Origin: Tannerella sp. | GTDB lineage: Bacteria > Bacteroidota > Bacteroidia > Bacteroidales > Tannerellaceae | Assembly (NCBI GenBank): GCA_031277335.1 | Contig: JAITMM010000074.1 | Span: 1-43,512 of the forward strand | Length of the DNA: 43,512 nucleotides | Direction: 5' to 3' | Shown here: positions 31,865 to 40,493 of the stretch, one piece after another | Numbering within the stretch: the first letter of the stretch is position 1 | Layout: each line of letters opens with the position of its first letter | Notes under the pieces: model-generated | What the model was told of the DNA's origin: nothing | What the model saw: the letters and a program-made list of their open reading frames with translations, nothing else | The model's database searches: none | Made by a program: the position numbers and the translations under genes

Positions 31865-32512
31865 TTACCGGAAAAATATTTCCCCGAAATGCGCAGGACA
31901 GTGATAATCAGGCTTCGGCAGACCGATTGGACTCCAAGTCACATAATGCGGATTTTCGGTGCCGTCCGCACATTTGTAGAAATTCCCGTATATCTTTTCA
32001 GGCAGGTTACCGGCATCCAGCCCCATCAATTCAAATGGAATGGCAACAGTCAATTCCCAGGAATAAAGGCCATTAATCTCCTCAAATGCCATGCGTTGCA
32101 AGGTCGTGTAACGGCGTATGCGCTGAAATTCGCCGGAAGTCAGCGGAGTGCCTGTTTCACGCGATTGCCGACGGCACGAGTGGCAAGTCCCAATGCAATT
32201 GAACTCAAAATTGATATAGTCCATCTCACCGGCCTTGCGCATAAAAAACTCGACGCAACTGTCCTCATGGACAAAGTCACCGTCCGTATCAGCCACAGCC
32301 CGAATGGATAATCCCTTGACAAAGTAGCGGATATACAAATCGGACTTCCCCCGCGCAATATCAAATGCCACTATCGGTTTGTAAGGAAAAGATTCTTTCC
32401 AGTTCAGGACTTCAATACTTTCGCGTGAAGCATTCAGCTCCATAAGAGTCGATGTTTCAGACAGTTCGCACTCATCCAGCGATGGCACGAAAGGCACTTT
32501 CAGCGTTTTCAT
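31865..32512 (-). CDS. Carbohydrate-binding family 9-like (CBM9) protein
   Basis: A 215-residue protein resembling CBM9-like/DOMON-type carbohydrate-binding proteins: FDIARGKSDLYIRYFVKG, the acidic signature HEDSCVEFFMRKAGE, YINFEFNCIGTCHS, WELTVAIPFELMGL and GNFYKCADGTENPHYVTWSP. No signal peptide is visible with the start at 32512, so it would stay in the cytosol unless exported otherwise. This start is supported by the promoter at 32534-32563. It is the first gene of a pair with the serine hydrolase. Confidence 0.75.
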   Translation of the reverse strand: MKTLKVPFVPSLDECELSETSTLMELNASRESIEVLNWKESFPYKPIVAFDIARGKSDLYIRYFVKGLSIRAVADTDGDFVHEDSCVEFFMRKAGEMDYINFEFNCIGTCHSCRRQSRETGTPLTSGEFQRIRRYTTLQRMAFEEINGLYSWELTVAIPFELMGLDAGNLPEKIYGNFYKCADGTENPHYVTWSPIGLPKPDYHCPAHFGEIFFR

Positions 32513-32533
32513 CTCATTCACATATTTTTTTTG

Positions 32534-32563
32534 CAAAAATAGATAATATTTTGAGAATGGCAA
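32534..32563 (-). promoter_or_regulatory. Promoter of the CBM9-like gene
   Basis: On the minus strand TTG (32563-32561), 19 bp, TATTTTTG (32541-32534). The start codon follows 21 bp later. Confidence 0.55.
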
Positions 32564-32676
32564 AATTTGTCTATTCTTCGAATTTGCACGCACCGGTTCT
32601 CCCGTCATCTCCCTGTAAGAATGGCTGCAAAGAGATTTTCCCATACTGTTTCAACCGGTCATGATCGAAAAAAGTT

Positions 32677-32705
32677 TTGGTTTCCTTAAATTTTGACTAC
32701 CTTTG
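32677..32705 (+). promoter_or_regulatory. Promoter of leuS
   Basis: TTG at 32677-32679, 18 bp, then TACCTTTG at 32698-32705. The leuS ATG chosen here (32747) lies 41 bp beyond. An in-frame upstream start at 32693 would sit inside the promoter and is rejected. Confidence 0.55.
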
Positions 32706-32746
32706 TACCCGAATTTTATATTAAACGGAATGTATATATAAAGGTT

Positions 32747-35700
32747 ATGGAATACGCATTCAGAGACATCGAGAAGAAGTGGCAGGAATACTGGAAGAAT
32801 AATCATGTTTACCGGGTCAGCGAAGACGCCGGCAAGCCGAAATATTACGTGTTGGACATGTTCCCGTATCCTTCCGGGGCAGGGCTTCATGTAGGACATC
32901 CGCTGGGATATATCGCTTCCGATATTTATTCGCGCTACAAACGGCTGTCGGGTTATAACGTGCTTCACCCGATGGGCTACGATGCGTATGGTTTGCCGGC
33001 CGAACAGTATGCGATCCAAACAGGTCAGCATCCGGCGATTACGACCGAAAACAATATCAACCGATACAGGGAGCAGATGGATAAAATCGGATTTTCCTAC
33101 GACTGGAGCCGCGAGGTACGCACCTGTGATTCAAAATATTACAAATGGACGCAATGGGCATTTATTCAAATGTTCAATTCGTACTATTGCTACGGCAAAC
33201 AGCAGGCCCGCCCGATTGACGGATTAATCAGGATTTTCGAGACGCAAGGCACAGAGGGACTGAATATTGCATGCACCGAAGAATTGGAATTTTCTGCTTC
33301 CGAATGGAAAGCGAAAAGCGACAGGGAAAAACAGGAAATCCTTATGAATTACCGGATTGCCTACTTAGCCGATTCGATGGTCAACTGGTGTCCCGCACTT
33401 GGCACGGTGCTGGCCAACGACGAAGTGAGCGAAGGCATCTCCATCCGCGGCGGCCATCCCGTGGAGCAAAAGCTGATGCGGCAATGGAGCCTGCGCATCT
33501 CGGCCTACGCTCAACGATTATTAAATGGCTTGGAAACAATCGATTGGACGGACTCGCTGAAAGAGACGCAACGCAACTGGATCGGCAGAAGCGAAGGTGC
33601 AGAAATAAGATTTCACCTCACCCCTGACCCCTCTCCGAAAGAGAGGGGGAAAGAGGGATATAAATATATGACGACTAATAAGTTGGATTGGAATGCGAAT
33701 ATTGATAATGCAAGGAGGATGCGAAAAGCGCAGACTGATGCAGAAAATATTTTATGGAACAATTTAAAAAATAGAAGTATAAATGGATTAAAATTCAGGC
33801 GACAACATTTAATTGATCAGTTTATTGTTGATTTCGTCTGCCTTGAAAAAAAGATTGTAATAGAAATTGATGGTGAATATCATAATTCGCCTGAACAGCA
33901 GGAATATGATAAAAATCGCTCACAATATCTGAATGACAATGGATTTCAAGTCATCCGCTTCACCAACAATGAAATATTCTTTGATTTAGAAAATGTAATC
34001 AAAAAAATAACCTCCACCGCCCTCTCCCCTCTCTCTCGGAGAGGGGCCGGGGGTGAGGTGTTAATCTTCACCACCCGCCCCGACACCATCTTCGGCGTCA
34101 CCTTCATGGTCTTGGCCCCCGAAAGCGATCTTGTTCAGCAACTTACAACCCCCGCCCAGTCATCCGCCGTCCATGACTACCTCCTCCAAACAAAAAAACG
34201 TACCGAGCGCGAACGCATTGCCGACCGCAAGATCACCGGCGTCTTCTCCGGCTCTTACGCCGTGAATCCCGTAAGCGGTGCAACCATACCTATATGGATA
34301 GCCGACTATGTATTAGCAGGTTACGGCACAGGCGCCATCATGGCAGTACCGGGGCACGATAGCCGCGACTATGCTTTTGCCCGTCACTTCGACCTGCCGA
34401 TCATCCCCCTGATCGAAGGAGCCGATATCAGCGAAGAGAGTTACGACGCCAAGGACGGCATCATGATGAACTCCGGTTTTCTGAACGGATTGACTGTCAA
34501 GGAAGCCATCAAAAAGGCAAATGAATATATCGCGGATAACGGATTAGGCAGAATCAAAGTCAATTACCGCCTGCGCGACGCCATATTCAGCCGTCAACGC
34601 TACTGGGGCGAGCCGTTCCCCATCTATTACGATAAAGACGCTATGCCACAACCGATTCCCGAAGACAGACTGCCGCTCGAACTGCCTGCCGTCGACAGAT
34701 TTTTGCCGACCGAAACAGGTGCTCCGCCACTGGGGAATGCCTCCAAATGGGCGTGGGATACAGCTAATAACCAGGTGGTTGACACTTCATCCATTGATAA
34801 TCAAACCATCTTCCCGCTGGAATTATGCACCATGCCCGGATTCGCCGGTTCATCTGCCTATTACCTTCATTATATGGACCCTAACAGCGTCGACGCACTC
34901 GTCTCGCCAAAAGCCTGTGCCTACTGGCGCAACGTGGATTTATATATCGGAGGCACCGAACATGCCACCGGACACTTGATCTACAGCCGTTTCTGGAATA
35001 AATTCCTGTACGACACCGGCATTTCGTGCGAAGAAGAGCCGTTCAAAAAACTGATAAACCAGGGGATGATTCAGGGGCGCAGCAATTTTGTGTATCGCGT
35101 TCAAAATACAAATACCTTCGTGTCTCTCAACCTGAAAGAGCAATACGAAGTGACCCCTTTGCATGTCGACGTCAATCTTGTAAGTAATGACGTGCTGGAT
35201 ATCAACGCTTTCAAACGCTGGAACCCGGAATATGCGACGGCTGAATTTATCCTTGAAGACGGGAAATATATTTGCGGATGGGCTGTCGAGAAGATGTCGA
35301 AGTCGATGTACAATGTTGTCAATCCCGATATGATAGTCGAAAAATACGGTGCCGACACGTTGCGGCTGTACGAGATGTTTCTCGGTCCGCTGGAACAGTC
35401 CAAGCCGTGGGATACCAACGGGATAGACGGTGTGCACCGCTTCCTGAAACGGCTGTGGGCATTATTCTACGGCAATAGCGATACGCTGCAAGTGACTGAT
35501 GACGAGCCTACTGCCGCCGAATTAAAATCACTGCACAAACTGATTAAAAAGATAACGTACGATATTGAACATTTCTCGTTCAACACCTCGGTCAGCGCTT
35601 TTATGATATGTATCAACGAGTTAGGCAGCCTCAAATGCAGCAAGCGCGCCGTTCTTCAGCCTTTAGCGATTCTCCTCTCGCCATTTGCACCTCACCTGGC

Positions 35701-35974
35701 AGAAGAATTATGGCATTTACTTGGCTGCAATACAACTGTTTGCGACGCTAAATGGCCTGAATGGAATGAAGAATTTCTGCATGAAGACATGGTGACGTAT
35801 GTCATCTCCTTTAACGGAAAGGCGCGATTCAACATAGACCTTCCGGCAGATATATCAGCCGAGGATGCCGAAAAGGCAGCACTCGCCAATCCTCATTCCG
35901 CCAAATGGTTATCCGACAAAACCCCTAAAAAGGTGATAGTCGTCCCCGGAAAAATCGTAAATATTGTCGTATGA
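32747..35974 (+). CDS. leuS: Leucyl-tRNA synthetase carrying an in-frame DUF559 nuclease insertion
   Basis: A 1075-residue class I synthetase that charges tRNA-Leu. HVGH (48-51, HIGH box), [10 protein letters not shown] before the editing domain, TTRPDTIFG and [19 protein letters not shown] (CP1 editing site with the conserved Asp), and EKMSKS (KMSKS 849-853) are all present, so both synthetic and editing functions look intact. Residues 290-438 are foreign. They are encoded exactly by the inverted-repeat element 33614-34060 and include a DUF559 PD-(D/E)XK-like domain (about 308-425). Without it the enzyme would be 926 residues, normal for Bacteroidetes. The insertion lies in the loop between GAEIRF and LIFTTRPDT at the entrance of the editing domain, where length varies between species. 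No splicing motifs were seen, so the mature enzyme probably carries the passenger. The gene is followed by yitT. Confidence 0.95.
33614..33648 (+). repeat. Left 35-bp inverted terminal repeat of the leuS element
   Basis: Begins CACCTCACCCC. It differs from the reverse complement of the right end at three positions (12, 14 and 26). Confidence 0.9.
34026..34060 (-). repeat. Right 35-bp inverted terminal repeat of the leuS element
   Basis: Ends GGGGGTGAGGTG. It is the mirror partner of 33614-33648 and contains the hairpin CCCCTCTC / GAGAGGGG. Confidence 0.9.
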
Positions 35975-36003
35975 ACGGTCGAGGTTCAATGTTCCGCCGA
36001 TTC

Positions 36004-36031
36004 GTCATTCCGCACTTGATGCGGAATCCCC
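36004..36031 (+). repeat. 28-bp REP-like hairpin repeat, copy 1
   Basis: Palindromic arms ATTCCGCA / TGCGGAAT around CTTGA. An identical copy (28 of 28) lies in the opposite orientation at 41956-41983. Here it follows leuS by 29 bp. Confidence 0.85.
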
Positions 36032-36036
36032 GGTTC

Positions 36037-36102
36037 GTATTAATTCGTGTTCATTCGTGTAATTCGTGGCAAAAATAATTCGTGGCAAAAATAATCCGTG
36101 GC
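36037..36102 (+). repeat. ATTCGTG repeat cluster upstream of yitT
   Basis: Three ATTCGTG units, then a 16-bp unit AATTCGTGGCAAAAAT twice in tandem (36061-36076, 36077-36092) and a partial third. The GTG at 36098 inside the last unit opens a longer yitT frame but is repeat DNA, not a credible start. Confidence 0.8.
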
Positions 36103-36145
36103 TAAAGCAACTATTAACAACAAACTGACTAACGACCTCTCAAAC

Positions 36146-37018
36146 ATGAAGAAGTCGCTCAACCGCATCTACCATCCTTTTCGCGATTATATTTTTATCG
36201 TGATCGGGACGTTACTGTATGGCTTTGGTTTTAACGGTTTTATCCTGTCCAACGAGATTGTGCCCGGCGGCTTGACAGGCCTTTGCTCCATCCTGTTTTT
36301 TACGACACATATCCCTGTTTCCATTTCGTTTACAACCGTAAATATACTGTTGCTGTTTGCCGCCTATAAGGTGCTGGGTATCAAGTTTATGCTTAACTCC
36401 ATCTTTGGGATTGCTTCGCTGGCGCTGTCACTGATGTTTTTCGAGTGGCTACTTGGCAATAAGCCTGTTATCGAAGGTGAGCCATTCATGTCTATCGTGA
36501 TTGGCGGCGTGCTGTGTGGCACGGGGATCGGGATCGTTTTTTCGGCCAACGGCAGTACGGGCGGCACGGATATCATTGGCGCCGTAATCAATAAATACAA
36601 GGATGTGTCGATAGGCAGAACGCTGTTTTTCTGCGACTTCCTGATCATCGGCTCGTCGTTCTTCATTTTCCACAGCATCGACAAGGTGGTCTTCGGCCTG
36701 GTCGAGATGGCCATCAACAACTACGTGCTCGACAGAGTGCTGTATTCCAACAACCAATCCATCCAGTTCCTCATTTTTTCCAAACAATACGAAGAAATCT
36801 CCGCCCGCATCCTCAGCGACCTCAACCGCGGTTGTACACTGCTTGAGGGGATGGGAGGCTATTCCAAAGAGCCTATCAAGGCGATTATCCTGCTTGCCAA
36901 AAGTCGCGAAAGCGTCACCATCTTCCGCCTGATAAAATCCGTTGATCCTCATGCGTTTATCACGCAAAGTACGGTGCGTGGCGTCTACGGGGAAGGGTTT
37001 GAGCAGATAAAGGTATGA
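36146..37018 (+). CDS. YitT family membrane protein (DUF161/DUF2179)
   Basis: A 290-residue protein with about five transmembrane helices in the first 200 residues (YIFIVIGTLLYGFGFNGFIL, IVPGGLTGLCSIL, the GSTGGTDIIGAVINKY signature) and a C-terminal DUF2179 domain (ISARILSDLNRGCTLLEGMG, KAIILLAKSRE). It is the YitT group of putative inner-membrane transporters, substrate unknown. The start at 36146 (MKKSLNRIYHPF) is preferred because the longer frame begins in the upstream repeats. It ends 3 bp from the convergent thioesterase stop. Gene order leuS-yitT-rdgB is one I recall from other Bacteroidales. Confidence 0.85.
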   Translation: MKKSLNRIYHPFRDYIFIVIGTLLYGFGFNGFILSNEIVPGGLTGLCSILFFTTHIPVSISFTTVNILLLFAAYKVLGIKFMLNSIFGIASLALSLMFFEWLLGNKPVIEGEPFMSIVIGGVLCGTGIGIVFSANGSTGGTDIIGAVINKYKDVSIGRTLFFCDFLIIGSSFFIFHSIDKVVFGLVEMAINNYVLDRVLYSNNQSIQFLIFSKQYEEISARILSDLNRGCTLLEGMGGYSKEPIKAIILLAKSRESVTIFRLIKSVDPHAFITQSTVRGVYGEGFEQIKV

Positions 37019-37631: not shown

Positions 37632-40493
37632 ATGAACAATAAACTTGTATTTGCAACAAATAACAAACATAAACTCAGAGAAGTAAAGGATATCGTATCC
37701 GGTAATTTTCAAATCGTCAGCCTTGCTGACATTCACTGCGAAGAAGATATTCCGGAAACAGCTGATACGCTTGAAGGAAATGCCTTATTGAAAGCCGATT
37801 ATGTCAAGGAGCAATACGGTTATGACTGTTTTGCGGATGATACGGGCTTGGAGGTGGAAGCGTTGAATGGCGCGCCAGGTGTCTATTCGGCACGTTACGC
37901 AGGGACAGCGCATGACAGTCAAGCCAATATGATGAAACTGCTGCATCAGATGCATGGACAAACGAACAGGAAAGCCCGTTTCAGAACGGTCATTGCTTTG
38001 ATAATGAACGATACAACGCACTTATTCGAAGGAATCATAGAAGGACAAATTACCGAATCGCCCCGTGGTGACAAAGGATTTGGTTATGACCCTGTTTTTG
38101 TGCCGGATGGATTTACGGAAACATTTGCAGAATTGGGAGACGCAATCAAAAACACTGTCAGTCACCGCGCTAAAGCCGTCCACGCATTGGCGAAATTCCT
38201 TACAACCCTTTGCCTGTTGTTAGCCGTGATCGCCATTAATGCCCAGAAAGTCGGCGAATGGCGCACATACCTGGCAAGTTACAACACGACGGCTGTCGCT
38301 GAAGCAAATAACATGGTTTTCGGAATGGCCGACGGTTCTTTATATAGTTACGGAAAAGACGATAACCGCGTCACTTTCTACTCGCGCCTAACCGGACTGA
38401 GCGAAAACGATATCAAACTAATTGGCTATAATCCGGCAGTCAAGATGCTGCTGATAGCGTATACTAACGGGAATATCGATCTGATGGGCGAAGATGGAAT
38501 TTACAATCTGCCGTTCTTGAAGAATGCCGGAAATATTGCCGATAAAGAACCGCTCGATGTATATTTCAATAACGAAAGAGCCTATCTGTCATGCCGTTTC
38601 GGTATAGTAGTCATCCAAATGGATAAAAGAGAAGTGGCTGAGACATATCGTTTCAATCAACCTGCTTATTCGGTTTGTATAATGGGAGAGACTATTTATG
38701 CATCCACAGATGAAGGACTTAGAAGAGGCAATTTGCGTGATAATCTTTTAGATAACAACAACTGGAGCCTTGTCTCGCTCAATTCACCCGATGTAAATGT
38801 AAAGAATATTCGCCAACTTGCGCTTTTCCAGGATAGGCTGTGCTTTCGCGTTGATGGCGGCGGCGTGTTTTACTTGGAAACCGACGGAACCGTAAAAACT
38901 ATAATCAAGCATACCGGCCTGACAGGCATGGTATTACTGCCAGGCTATTTAGCCGCTCATACAGCCTCGACACTTTATCTTTTCAATACACTTAATCGCT
39001 ATGAATCAGTAAATGTGGGCGTTATAAGCAATGTTTCGGCATTAACAAATAATGCCGATTTCTGGATTGCCGGAGGCATCAACGGGATCATCGGAATCAA
39101 GCGAAAAGCTGAAAATCAATTTGAAACGGCCGTATCTGGGCTAAATATAGATGGACCTAAGCGCAACTTAACTGCTTCCCTGACGTTGCACGGAGAGAAA
39201 TTATTGATTACGGGAGGAGGATTTGTATTTGACCGGTTTAATAATCCCGGCACCTTGATGACTTACGAAAATGGCATCTGGACAAATTTTGATGAGAATC
39301 AGATTATTCCGAAAATCGGTTATGGCATCAGGGATTTCACATCGGTGGCCGTAGACCCCGATGACGATACTCATTATTTCGTATCATCATTCGGGGAAGG
39401 CATTTTTGAAGTAAAAGACAATCAATTTATTACGCTCCACAATCACTTAAATAGCGCTTTACAAAGCGTTTTGCCAAACCAGTCTATCTCCGACCGTTAT
39501 GTCAGGGTTTGCTATGTTGCCTTCGATAAGGACAAAAACCTATGGGCTACCAACCGCGCCGGACGCAATGTGATGGTGGTACGAACGCCTGACGGACAAT
39601 GGGCTGCACTCACTTACCCCGGGCTAATCGAATCAAGCATAGTCGATAAAATACTCTTCACTTCCACCAATATGAAATGGTTGAATGTGCCGCATGCAAC
39701 AGGTATAAACGGCGGAATCTTAGTCGTTGACGATAATGGCACTCCAACCGATAACTCTGACGATCAATCATTTTACTACGACAACTTACGGACGGCAGGC
39801 ACCAATAATATACATGGCACTAAATTTTATTGCATCGTAGAAGACCTGACAGGGAAGATATGGATTGGCTCCAACAGTGGACCAATTATTTGTCAATCAC
39901 CAAATAATATTGACAATCTGCTATTTACGCATATAATTCGCGAAGATGACAATTTCGTGCCTTATTATTTCTTAGACGGTGAACAAATAAATACCATAGC
40001 CGTAGACGGCGGAAACAGGAAATGGATTGGCACAGCAGGATCGGGTCTTTTCTTAGTCAGTCCCGAAGGCGACAGGACGATTCTGCATTTCGACATGAAC
40101 AACTCGCCATTGTATTCTAATAATATTCAGAGTATTGTAATAGACAGCAATACAGGTGAAGTATTTATCGGGACTGATAAGGGACTGATTTCTTATCAGG
40201 GCGACGCCACCGAACCGTCCGCAGATTATTCCGACGTATATGCCTACCCAAATCCTGTGCGCCCTGAAATAGATGACCGCGTGGTTATCACCGGCCTGAT
40301 GAGCAACTCGAACGTAAAAATCACCGATTTATCAGGCAACTTGATCCATCAAGGCACATCAGCAGGCGGACAATTCGTATGGAATTGCCGCACACGCACC
40401 GGCTCACGCGTTGCCACAGGCATTTACTTAGTCCTCTCCTCCACCCCGCAAGCCGCCGAAAGCGTCGTGACGAAAATCGCGGTGGTGCATTAG
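37632..40493 (+). CDS. rdgB-porZ: RdgB (XTP/dITP diphosphatase) fused in frame to a PorZ-like T9SS propeller protein
   Basis: A 953-residue frame. Residues 1-190 are a complete RdgB/HAM1 enzyme: [51 protein letters not shown]. It cleans dITP/XTP from the nucleotide pool. Residue 191 on reads [20 protein letters not shown], a signal peptide followed by the PorZ/two-component-regulator-like beta-propeller (repeats such as [28 protein letters not shown]) and a C-terminal sorting-type domain ([21 protein letters not shown]). PorZ works on the surface with the type IX secretion system. No stop separates the two parts. A TTG at 38187 would start [19 protein letters not shown], a perfect signal peptide, so the halves may be made separately. 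Otherwise this is a true fusion. Confidence 0.85.

Follow-up and report, generated by a model that had tools for sequence, protein, structure and literature searches.

How does a leucyl-tRNA synthetase gene come to hold an element with inverted ends and a nuclease domain of its own, and how does the enzyme live with it? The question is raised by the window analyzed here, a stretch of 43,512 nucleotides from a draft genome of Tannerella sp. (contig JAITMM010000074.1), in which the reading frame of leuS runs through such an insert. The window element belongs to a widespread family of palindromic elements that lie in frame, carry a nuclease and show no sign of splicing; as an observation this is confirmed, and the interpretation is supported by the comparisons below. 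An earlier note on this DNA, made from its letters, had read the insert as a nuclease-bearing palindromic insertion that occupies the niche of inteins and homing endonucleases and stays unspliced, and the sequence tests support that reading.

The insert in leuS

The interrupted gene and its parts are as follows.

32747..35974, plus strand: leuS, leucyl-tRNA synthetase, ATG at 32747, stop at 35972-35974, 1075 aa including the insert
32747..33613, plus strand: LeuRS part 5' of the insert, codons 1-289, ending ...RSEGAEIRF at the CP1 hairpin
33614..34060, plus strand: in-frame element, considered mobile (see below), 447 bp or 149 codons, with inverted ends
33614..33648, plus strand: left end, a copy of a dispersed repeat, with the head CACCTCACCCC followed by the hairpin CCCCTCTC-loop-GAGAGGGG
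33668..33670, plus strand: in-frame ATG (M308) between the left repeat and the nuclease domain
33704..34015, plus strand: DUF559 nuclease domain (Vsr-like/EDxHD type), PF04480, aa 320-423
33743..33910, plus strand: conserved, presumed catalytic residues E333, D362, E373, D375, H379 and D388 (LeuRS numbering)
34026..34060, minus strand: right end, a second copy of the left-end repeat, inverted, with its head outward
34061..35971, plus strand: LeuRS part 3' of the insert, starting with LIFTTRPDT (editing domain)

A single open frame of 1075 codons spans the interrupted gene, and the element starts after exactly 289 leuS codons and ends with codon 438. The unit of 447 bp with 32 of 35 matching end positions and a DUF559 gene, placed in frame in leuS by the earlier note, is correct to the base. 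The NCBIfam model of the leucine-tRNA ligase equivalog (leuS_bact, TIGR00396; cut-off 548.4 bits) accepts the product at 900.6 bits. Pfam finds the synthetase, editing and anticodon domains and places DUF559 directly before the editing domain (PF13603, aa 435-594). In an alignment to the T. thermophilus LeuRS (1h3n) the match stops at query residue 290, which is chain residue 235, and resumes at 437, which is chain residue 242, so that the insert takes the place of a loop of about six residues, the site being placed on 1h3n by sequence alignment only.

All 61 genomes queried with the window LeuRS, its own included, give a match, and by hand count a DUF559 insert is present in 7 of the 52 genomes, again including its own, in which both flanks of the site are readable. 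The spacing from WIGRS to TTR in the genes compared is 19-23 residues at empty sites versus 156-217 at occupied ones. Most readable relatives have an empty site, as the earlier note had anticipated for their LeuRS, and the uninterrupted second leuS that it had named as the case against its reading is not seen: the matches listed in this genome hold one leuS, and the other four are weaker than 1.6e-8.

Pfam finds no intein domain in the interrupted LeuRS, and no Cys, Ser or Thr stands at the junctions, where the first element residue is H290, the last V438 and the next L439. With neither a Hint splicing domain nor junction nucleophiles, the insert is not classed as an intein. A group I or group II intron with a homing endonuclease was likewise rejected, since Rfam gives no ribozyme or intron match up to E = 1 in 32500-36200. 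The absence of splicing motifs claimed by the earlier note thus extends to the intein domain, the Rfam models and the junction residues.

Elsewhere in the window (37632-40493, plus strand), a Ham1-type nucleotide pyrophosphatase (PF01725) and a PorZ propeller protein of type 9 secretion (PF21544) share a single 953-aa ORF, and a stretch resembling a signal peptide lies where they meet. This may be a real fusion or reflect a lost stop between neighboring genes.

The DUF559 nuclease domain

PF04480 matches aa 320-423 of the interrupted LeuRS with E = 1.7e-36 and 124.9 bits against a cut-off of 20.6. The six conserved residues E333, D362, E373, D375, H379 and D388, which are E20, D49, E60, D62, H66 and D75 in domain numbering, are kept in 134, 135, 135, 132, 133 and 134 of the 135 embedded domains described below, respectively. 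Conserved acidic and histidine residues have a catalytic role in the Vsr-like and EDxHD families, and we presume the same role here. The window domain alone finds PDB entry 3hrl at 8.2e-20 and 3r3p at 0.0083. A profile made from embedded domains (A1) finds 3hrl, an endonuclease-like protein, at 6.8e-27 and 3r3p, which is annotated as a mobile intron protein and which we take to be I-Bth0305I, at 3.8e-8; the kinship of the nuclease to homing endonucleases is seen by way of this profile. PADLOC gives weak matches only (homing endonuclease 8.6e-5, DpdF 9.3e-4), and an assignment to a defense system was rejected.

The nuclease domain is under purifying selection. Of 18 pairs, 11 allow the dN/dS of the insert to be calculated, and it lies at 0.05-0.22, eight of these pairs having dS below 1; the other seven pairs are saturated. 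For the LeuRS flanks of other carriers the ratio is 0.03-0.10. The dS of the insert is below that of the host in two pairs (L117/L118 and L132/L121) and above it in another (L231/L232).

The in-frame ATG at 33668 makes a separate nuclease product possible for the window copy. A methionine lies within 16 residues upstream in 33 of the 135 embedded domains, the window copy being one of them, versus 37 of the 46 domains in short frames (p = 2.4e-11 by Fisher's test). Lacking a near upstream methionine, most embedded copies are probably made solely within the host protein.

Paired ends and the dispersed repeat

The start of the element at 33614 is the base from which 13 repeat copies align, in an alignment whose start points were set by us, and the solitary copies differ in their upstream bases. 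The inverted arms (33614-33648 and 34026-34060) are 35 nt long and 91% complementary, with 377 nt between them. Each end repeat consists of a head that begins with CACCTCACCCC and a hairpin whose stem is 8 bp long, and both heads point outward. Folding z-scores are -1.59 to -3.28 for four solitary copies and -2.05 and -1.15 at the two element ends; the right-end hairpin alone (z -1.15) is no stronger than expected.

The inverted ends of the window element are not a product of chance, given an end-pairing score of 29.0 and control medians of 9 for mispaired and 8 for shuffled ends. The test covered 134 of the 135 embedded elements, one with short flanks being dropped. Own ends pair with a median score of 14.5, versus 9.0 for mispaired and 8.0 for shuffled ends (p = 9e-16), and a score of at least 14 is reached by 72 own, 17 mispaired and 0 shuffled pairs. 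The other 62 of the 134 elements score below 14, which counts against the explanation that we favor. Short-frame DUF559 genes (n = 44) share the paired ends, with a median of 17.25 versus 10 mispaired and 8.5 shuffled (p = 1.1e-6) and scores of at least 14 in 28/44 own, 4/44 mispaired and 0/44 shuffled pairs; the association with repeats therefore belongs to the family and not to embedded copies alone.

The head motif, which was picked after examples had been inspected, is present in a minority of the 270 flanks of the 135 embedded copies, pointing outward 53 times and inward 6 times. Around 45 short-frame genes the excess is small (14 outward versus 9 inward). Three free-standing DUF559 genes (L058, L039 and L086) have very long, near-identical inverted repeats with pairing scores of 84.5, 69.5 and 57, and those of L039 and L086 carry the CACCTCA head like the window element.

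A 20-base repeat pattern with one mismatch allowed has 13 matches in the window genome, both element ends included, and none for the reversed control; eleven solitary copies align with both ends from the head onward. A looser pattern finds 17 other places, 10 of which fall wholly or partly within an ORF of 200 aa or more. Among these ten, L005 touches a doubtful N-terminus only, and L074 and L078 lie in one ORF. Hosts backed by Pfam are an alpha-2-macroglobulin (L002), an FAD oxidase with Fe-S domains (L068), an AP_endonuc_2 protein with the repeat at its C-terminus (L006) and a DUF6549 protein (L085); the ORFs of L074 and L081 match no Pfam family. The reading phase of the repeat in L002 and L074 is that of leuS, giving HLTPxPSPKERG. 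The search of the genome for the 35-bp ends and for DUF559, proposed by the earlier note, thus returned solitary copies of the end repeat, some of them in frame within genes, and a single copy of DUF559.

Across 41 genomes of the genus the overlap is weak, which again counts against the favored explanation: seven genomes are repeat-rich (at least three pattern matches), six have an embedded DUF559, and three are common to both sets (P = 0.051). The end of a ValRS element in genome G365 has one further match there, three in G013 and none in G551 or G614, and the single further match in its own genome means that element ends are not always high-copy repeats. In one LeuRS (L014, genome G031) the CP1 loop holds the repeat ends with a short spacer and without DUF559, apparently as an internal-deletion form of an element of the L013 type.

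Repeats are also seen alone in other places. The LeuRS of G019 carries, in a second loop near residue 150, a translated repeat on its own, SLTPRPPLQKRGGARAI (L044), and that of G018 has a shorter similar stretch in the loop near residue 150 (L047). In the activation-domain loop of one metH (L241), an in-frame repeat-like SPLGGDLEAA stands where L163 and L161 hold a full DUF559 element. Genomes G031 and G012, drafts that are 81% and 55% complete, have 43 and 26 repeat-pattern matches and no DUF559 match.

A family of embedded elements

At least 135 distinct DUF559 domains are embedded in long ORFs (frames of at least 280 aa), this being the number left from 143 unique domains after a score filter of 50. 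The counts are biased lower bounds, since nine domains embedded in synthetases went into profile A1 and not every matching place was included. LeuRS is the host in 35 cases at the CP1 hairpin and in 7 at a second site, IleRS in 15 (at more than one site), ValRS in 7 at the CP1 hairpin and MetRS in 2. MetH accounts for 26, 22 of them at the B12 domain, and RecG for 11. Smaller counts fall to a UvrD-type helicase, methylmalonyl-CoA mutase, chorismate synthase, Lhr helicase, a PurL/PurQ-type glutamine amidotransferase, sugar enzymes and restriction-modification proteins. The equivalent hairpin, before TTRPDT, TTRPET or TTTPWT, serves as the site in LeuRS, in ValRS and in one IleRS case (L155).

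Host labels were given by motif in 95 cases and by reading in 40. Twenty hosts were verified with Pfam, and every one of them shows DUF559 together with one or more host families. The labels WxcM and AddA are ours; Pfam calls these hosts an epimerase/polysaccharide-synthesis protein and a UvrD-type helicase, respectively. One site label may span neighboring sites, for example that of L226 in IleRS or of L203 in MetH.

Judged by title or kinship, nearly all carriers are Bacteroidota, the exception (L183) being labeled a Nitrotoga MAG. Elements are also carried by named strains of Gillisia, Flavobacterium, Dysgonomonas, Marinilabilia and Maribacter, and so do not stem from an artefact in a single draft genome. 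Within the order, 161 of 393 genomes contain Pfam DUF559; at the level of the phylum, profile A1 has a match in 190 of 395. By hand count, the matches listed at 120 bits or more (45 places) fall into 34 in frames of at least 425 aa and 11 in frames of at most 173 aa, and none of the 45 has an internal stop, with a profile from embedded copies that favors such copies.

Movement between sites and hosts

Mobility of the element is well supported by comparison of copies. One metH (L163) holds two copies at two sites that are identical at 383 of 458 aligned bases (84%), with the homology beginning and ending at the end repeats. Genome G107 has copies of 75% identity in L126, an HsdR gene, and in L131, which codes for a DNA methylase.

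In a tree of 92 domains, a single clade for the inserts at the LeuRS site is rejected (p-AU 2.6e-5, lnL difference 149), in a test that was run after an earlier quick tree had been inspected. The starred branches of the tree force at least four site changes. The tree was made without L146 and several host groups, and only five MetH B12-site and five short-frame domains were kept. The RecG, WxcM-like, AddA-like and mutase inserts form one clade each, a pattern compatible both with homing and with inheritance at the site.

The trees of insert and LeuRS, made for 27 of the 35 LeuRS genes, reject each other (p-AU 2.9e-5 and 3.4e-66) and have 6 of 24 splits in common, each of two or three rows. On a LeuRS tree of 39 genes, chosen and not random, the presence of the insert needs five changes, at least three of them forced. 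The window LeuRS is sister to that of G019, with 82% identity in the host and 52% in the insert, and the sisters G018 and G013 have 81% and 52%. From these conflicts and sister pairs it follows that the LeuRS loop has gained an element, or exchanged one for another, on several occasions, within the genus too. The identity data do not all indicate recent transfer: insert and host identity are weakly correlated (rho 0.23), and insert identity exceeds that of the host in 31 of 595 LeuRS pairs. A comparison of occupied and empty MetH sites revealed no recognizable target-site duplication, since the loops vary too much.

Discussion

We consider it likely that a DUF559 gene between inverted REP-like hairpin repeats is a mobile unit that inserts into permissive loops of conserved genes and persists in them, in frame and unspliced, as a domain of the host product. 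The nuclease would be active and drive the movement, for which two routes can be envisaged. In a homing route, empty alleles would be cut by the nuclease and repair would copy the element in, and this suits the recurrent sites, the site-specific clades and the preference for conserved genes. On such copying into an empty allele, the recurrent sites and the conflicting trees bear only indirectly. In a transposition route, the nuclease would act on the hairpin ends like the RAYT in REPtrons, and this suits the solitary repeats, which would be non-autonomous relatives of the element, as well as the outward heads and the jumps between unrelated genes. Both routes may operate. The domain is minimal and has no extra DNA-binding region of the kind found in I-Bth0305I, which does not account for the choice of site and counts against homing. 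We infer that LeuRS carries the nuclease permanently and functions with the domain in place. Unlike an intein, the element would not remove itself and would depend on a loop that tolerates a domain of 150 aa. Once it sits in an essential gene only a precise deletion would be survivable, and therefore its persistence would be favored. Two features of the window copy speak against the explanation as a whole, namely that DUF559 is single-copy in its genome and that it has an ATG of its own.

The nuclease might instead be a passive passenger. In that case the repeats would be moved by other machinery, such as replication slippage or a RAYT or other transposase acting in trans, DUF559 would be cargo, and the in-frame sites would be what selection has left over. 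The many solitary repeats in G031, which lacks PF04480, the LeuRS loop of L014 filled by repeat ends alone and the single DUF559 copy of the window genome are all in line with this, incompleteness of the G031 draft being kept in mind. Nonetheless we hold it to be unlikely: near-invariant catalytic residues and low dN/dS argue for a nuclease that is required, inverted repeats also surround short-frame DUF559 genes, and random insertion alone would not predict recurrence at a few sites of conserved genes. The purifying selection would equally be expected of a domesticated domain, for instance a defense or stress nuclease tethered to a translation enzyme, and the restriction-modification proteins among the hosts and the PADLOC matches, though weak, point the same way. 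Such a service to the host is quite improbable in view of the patchy distribution of the insert among readable genomes, hosts that have no common function and the conflict between insert and host trees.

Still less probable is that the insert is removed or skipped, by protein splicing, RNA splicing or translational bypassing, to give a normal LeuRS. The element does occupy the niche of an intein, and palindromic elements in Magnusiomyces mitochondrial genes are described as bypassed (PMC6649704). Against removal stand the lack of an intein domain, of any Rfam match at E up to 1 and of Cys, Ser or Thr at the junctions. All 135 copies are also in the host frame, which neither bypassing nor RNA splicing would need, although this is partly by construction, as frames of at least 280 aa had been selected. 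An assembly artefact or a decaying pseudogene, for which one could cite a draft genome of 284 contigs, is hardly credible when a like architecture is found in many independent genomes, including Gillisia mitskevichiae DSM 19839 (L214) and Dysgonomonas sp. 521 (L148), and when other carriers show strong purifying selection on their LeuRS parts.

A bolder version of the mobile-unit explanation, to which we give a little less than an even chance, would make DUF559 the mobilizing enzyme of a superfamily of hairpin repeats that lacks a recognized transposase. Its coding form would be a splice-free homing element, lodged permanently as a domain in the loops of essential enzymes and able to hop from one to another, and so would represent a third way beside introns and inteins. 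If true, this would add a third lifestyle within essential genes, in which a related nuclease is found in conserved genes repeatedly and apparently without splicing. The family would also show, by natural example, where aminoacyl-tRNA synthetases, RecG and methionine synthase have loops that tolerate a domain of 150 residues, and it could be tested in cultured bacteria.

In the open-access literature, judged by titles and with subscription papers outside its scope, we found no description of the element family. We found there no paper on DUF559 together with leucyl-tRNA synthetase and no mention of the repeat sequence, and among the open-access papers that mention DUF559 no title concerns in-frame embedded elements.

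Several known systems come close to the family described here. Rickettsia palindromic elements (RPEs), which the earlier note named as the nearest precedent, and intragenic REPs are palindromic repeats that lie in frame in conserved protein genes and are tolerated by the product (PMC2229807, PMC3733652, PMC6649704); RPEs, of 105-146 bp, are grouped with non-autonomous elements in the first of these (PMC2229807). The window repeat is like them in being palindromic, with several copies of which some are in frame inside genes. Unlike an RPE, which is short and without a gene of its own, the window element has 447 bp and a nuclease domain, and its family joins two inverted repeats around that domain and recurs at the same sites across families. 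Inteins and the EDxHD homing endonucleases of introns, such as I-Bth0305I, share with it a related nuclease, conserved hosts and recurrent sites, and one DUF559 gene has been assigned to the EDxHD homing family (PMC9403480); here no intron or intein was found, and repeat ends are present. The embedded DUF559 domain also differs from I-Bth0305I by being minimal, whereas the latter is described with an additional DNA-binding region (PMC3943268). In a REPtron (PMC3733652), the RAYT acts on REPs, and its gene is flanked by hairpin repeats that also occur alone. The element resembles this arrangement, with a nuclease gene between flanking hairpin repeats that are also found solitary. A REPtron with a RAYT was nevertheless rejected, for DUF559 is the sole extra domain that Pfam finds in LeuRS and is not an HUH tyrosine transposase; the head is of the CACCTC type and not GTAG, and the element is embedded in host ORFs. 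Finally, free-standing DUF559/Vsr-like endonucleases (3hrl; NCBIfam PRK09767) have the same domain. They are short ORFs, mostly with a near methionine (37/46), whereas in the family described here the domain is fused into large enzymes.
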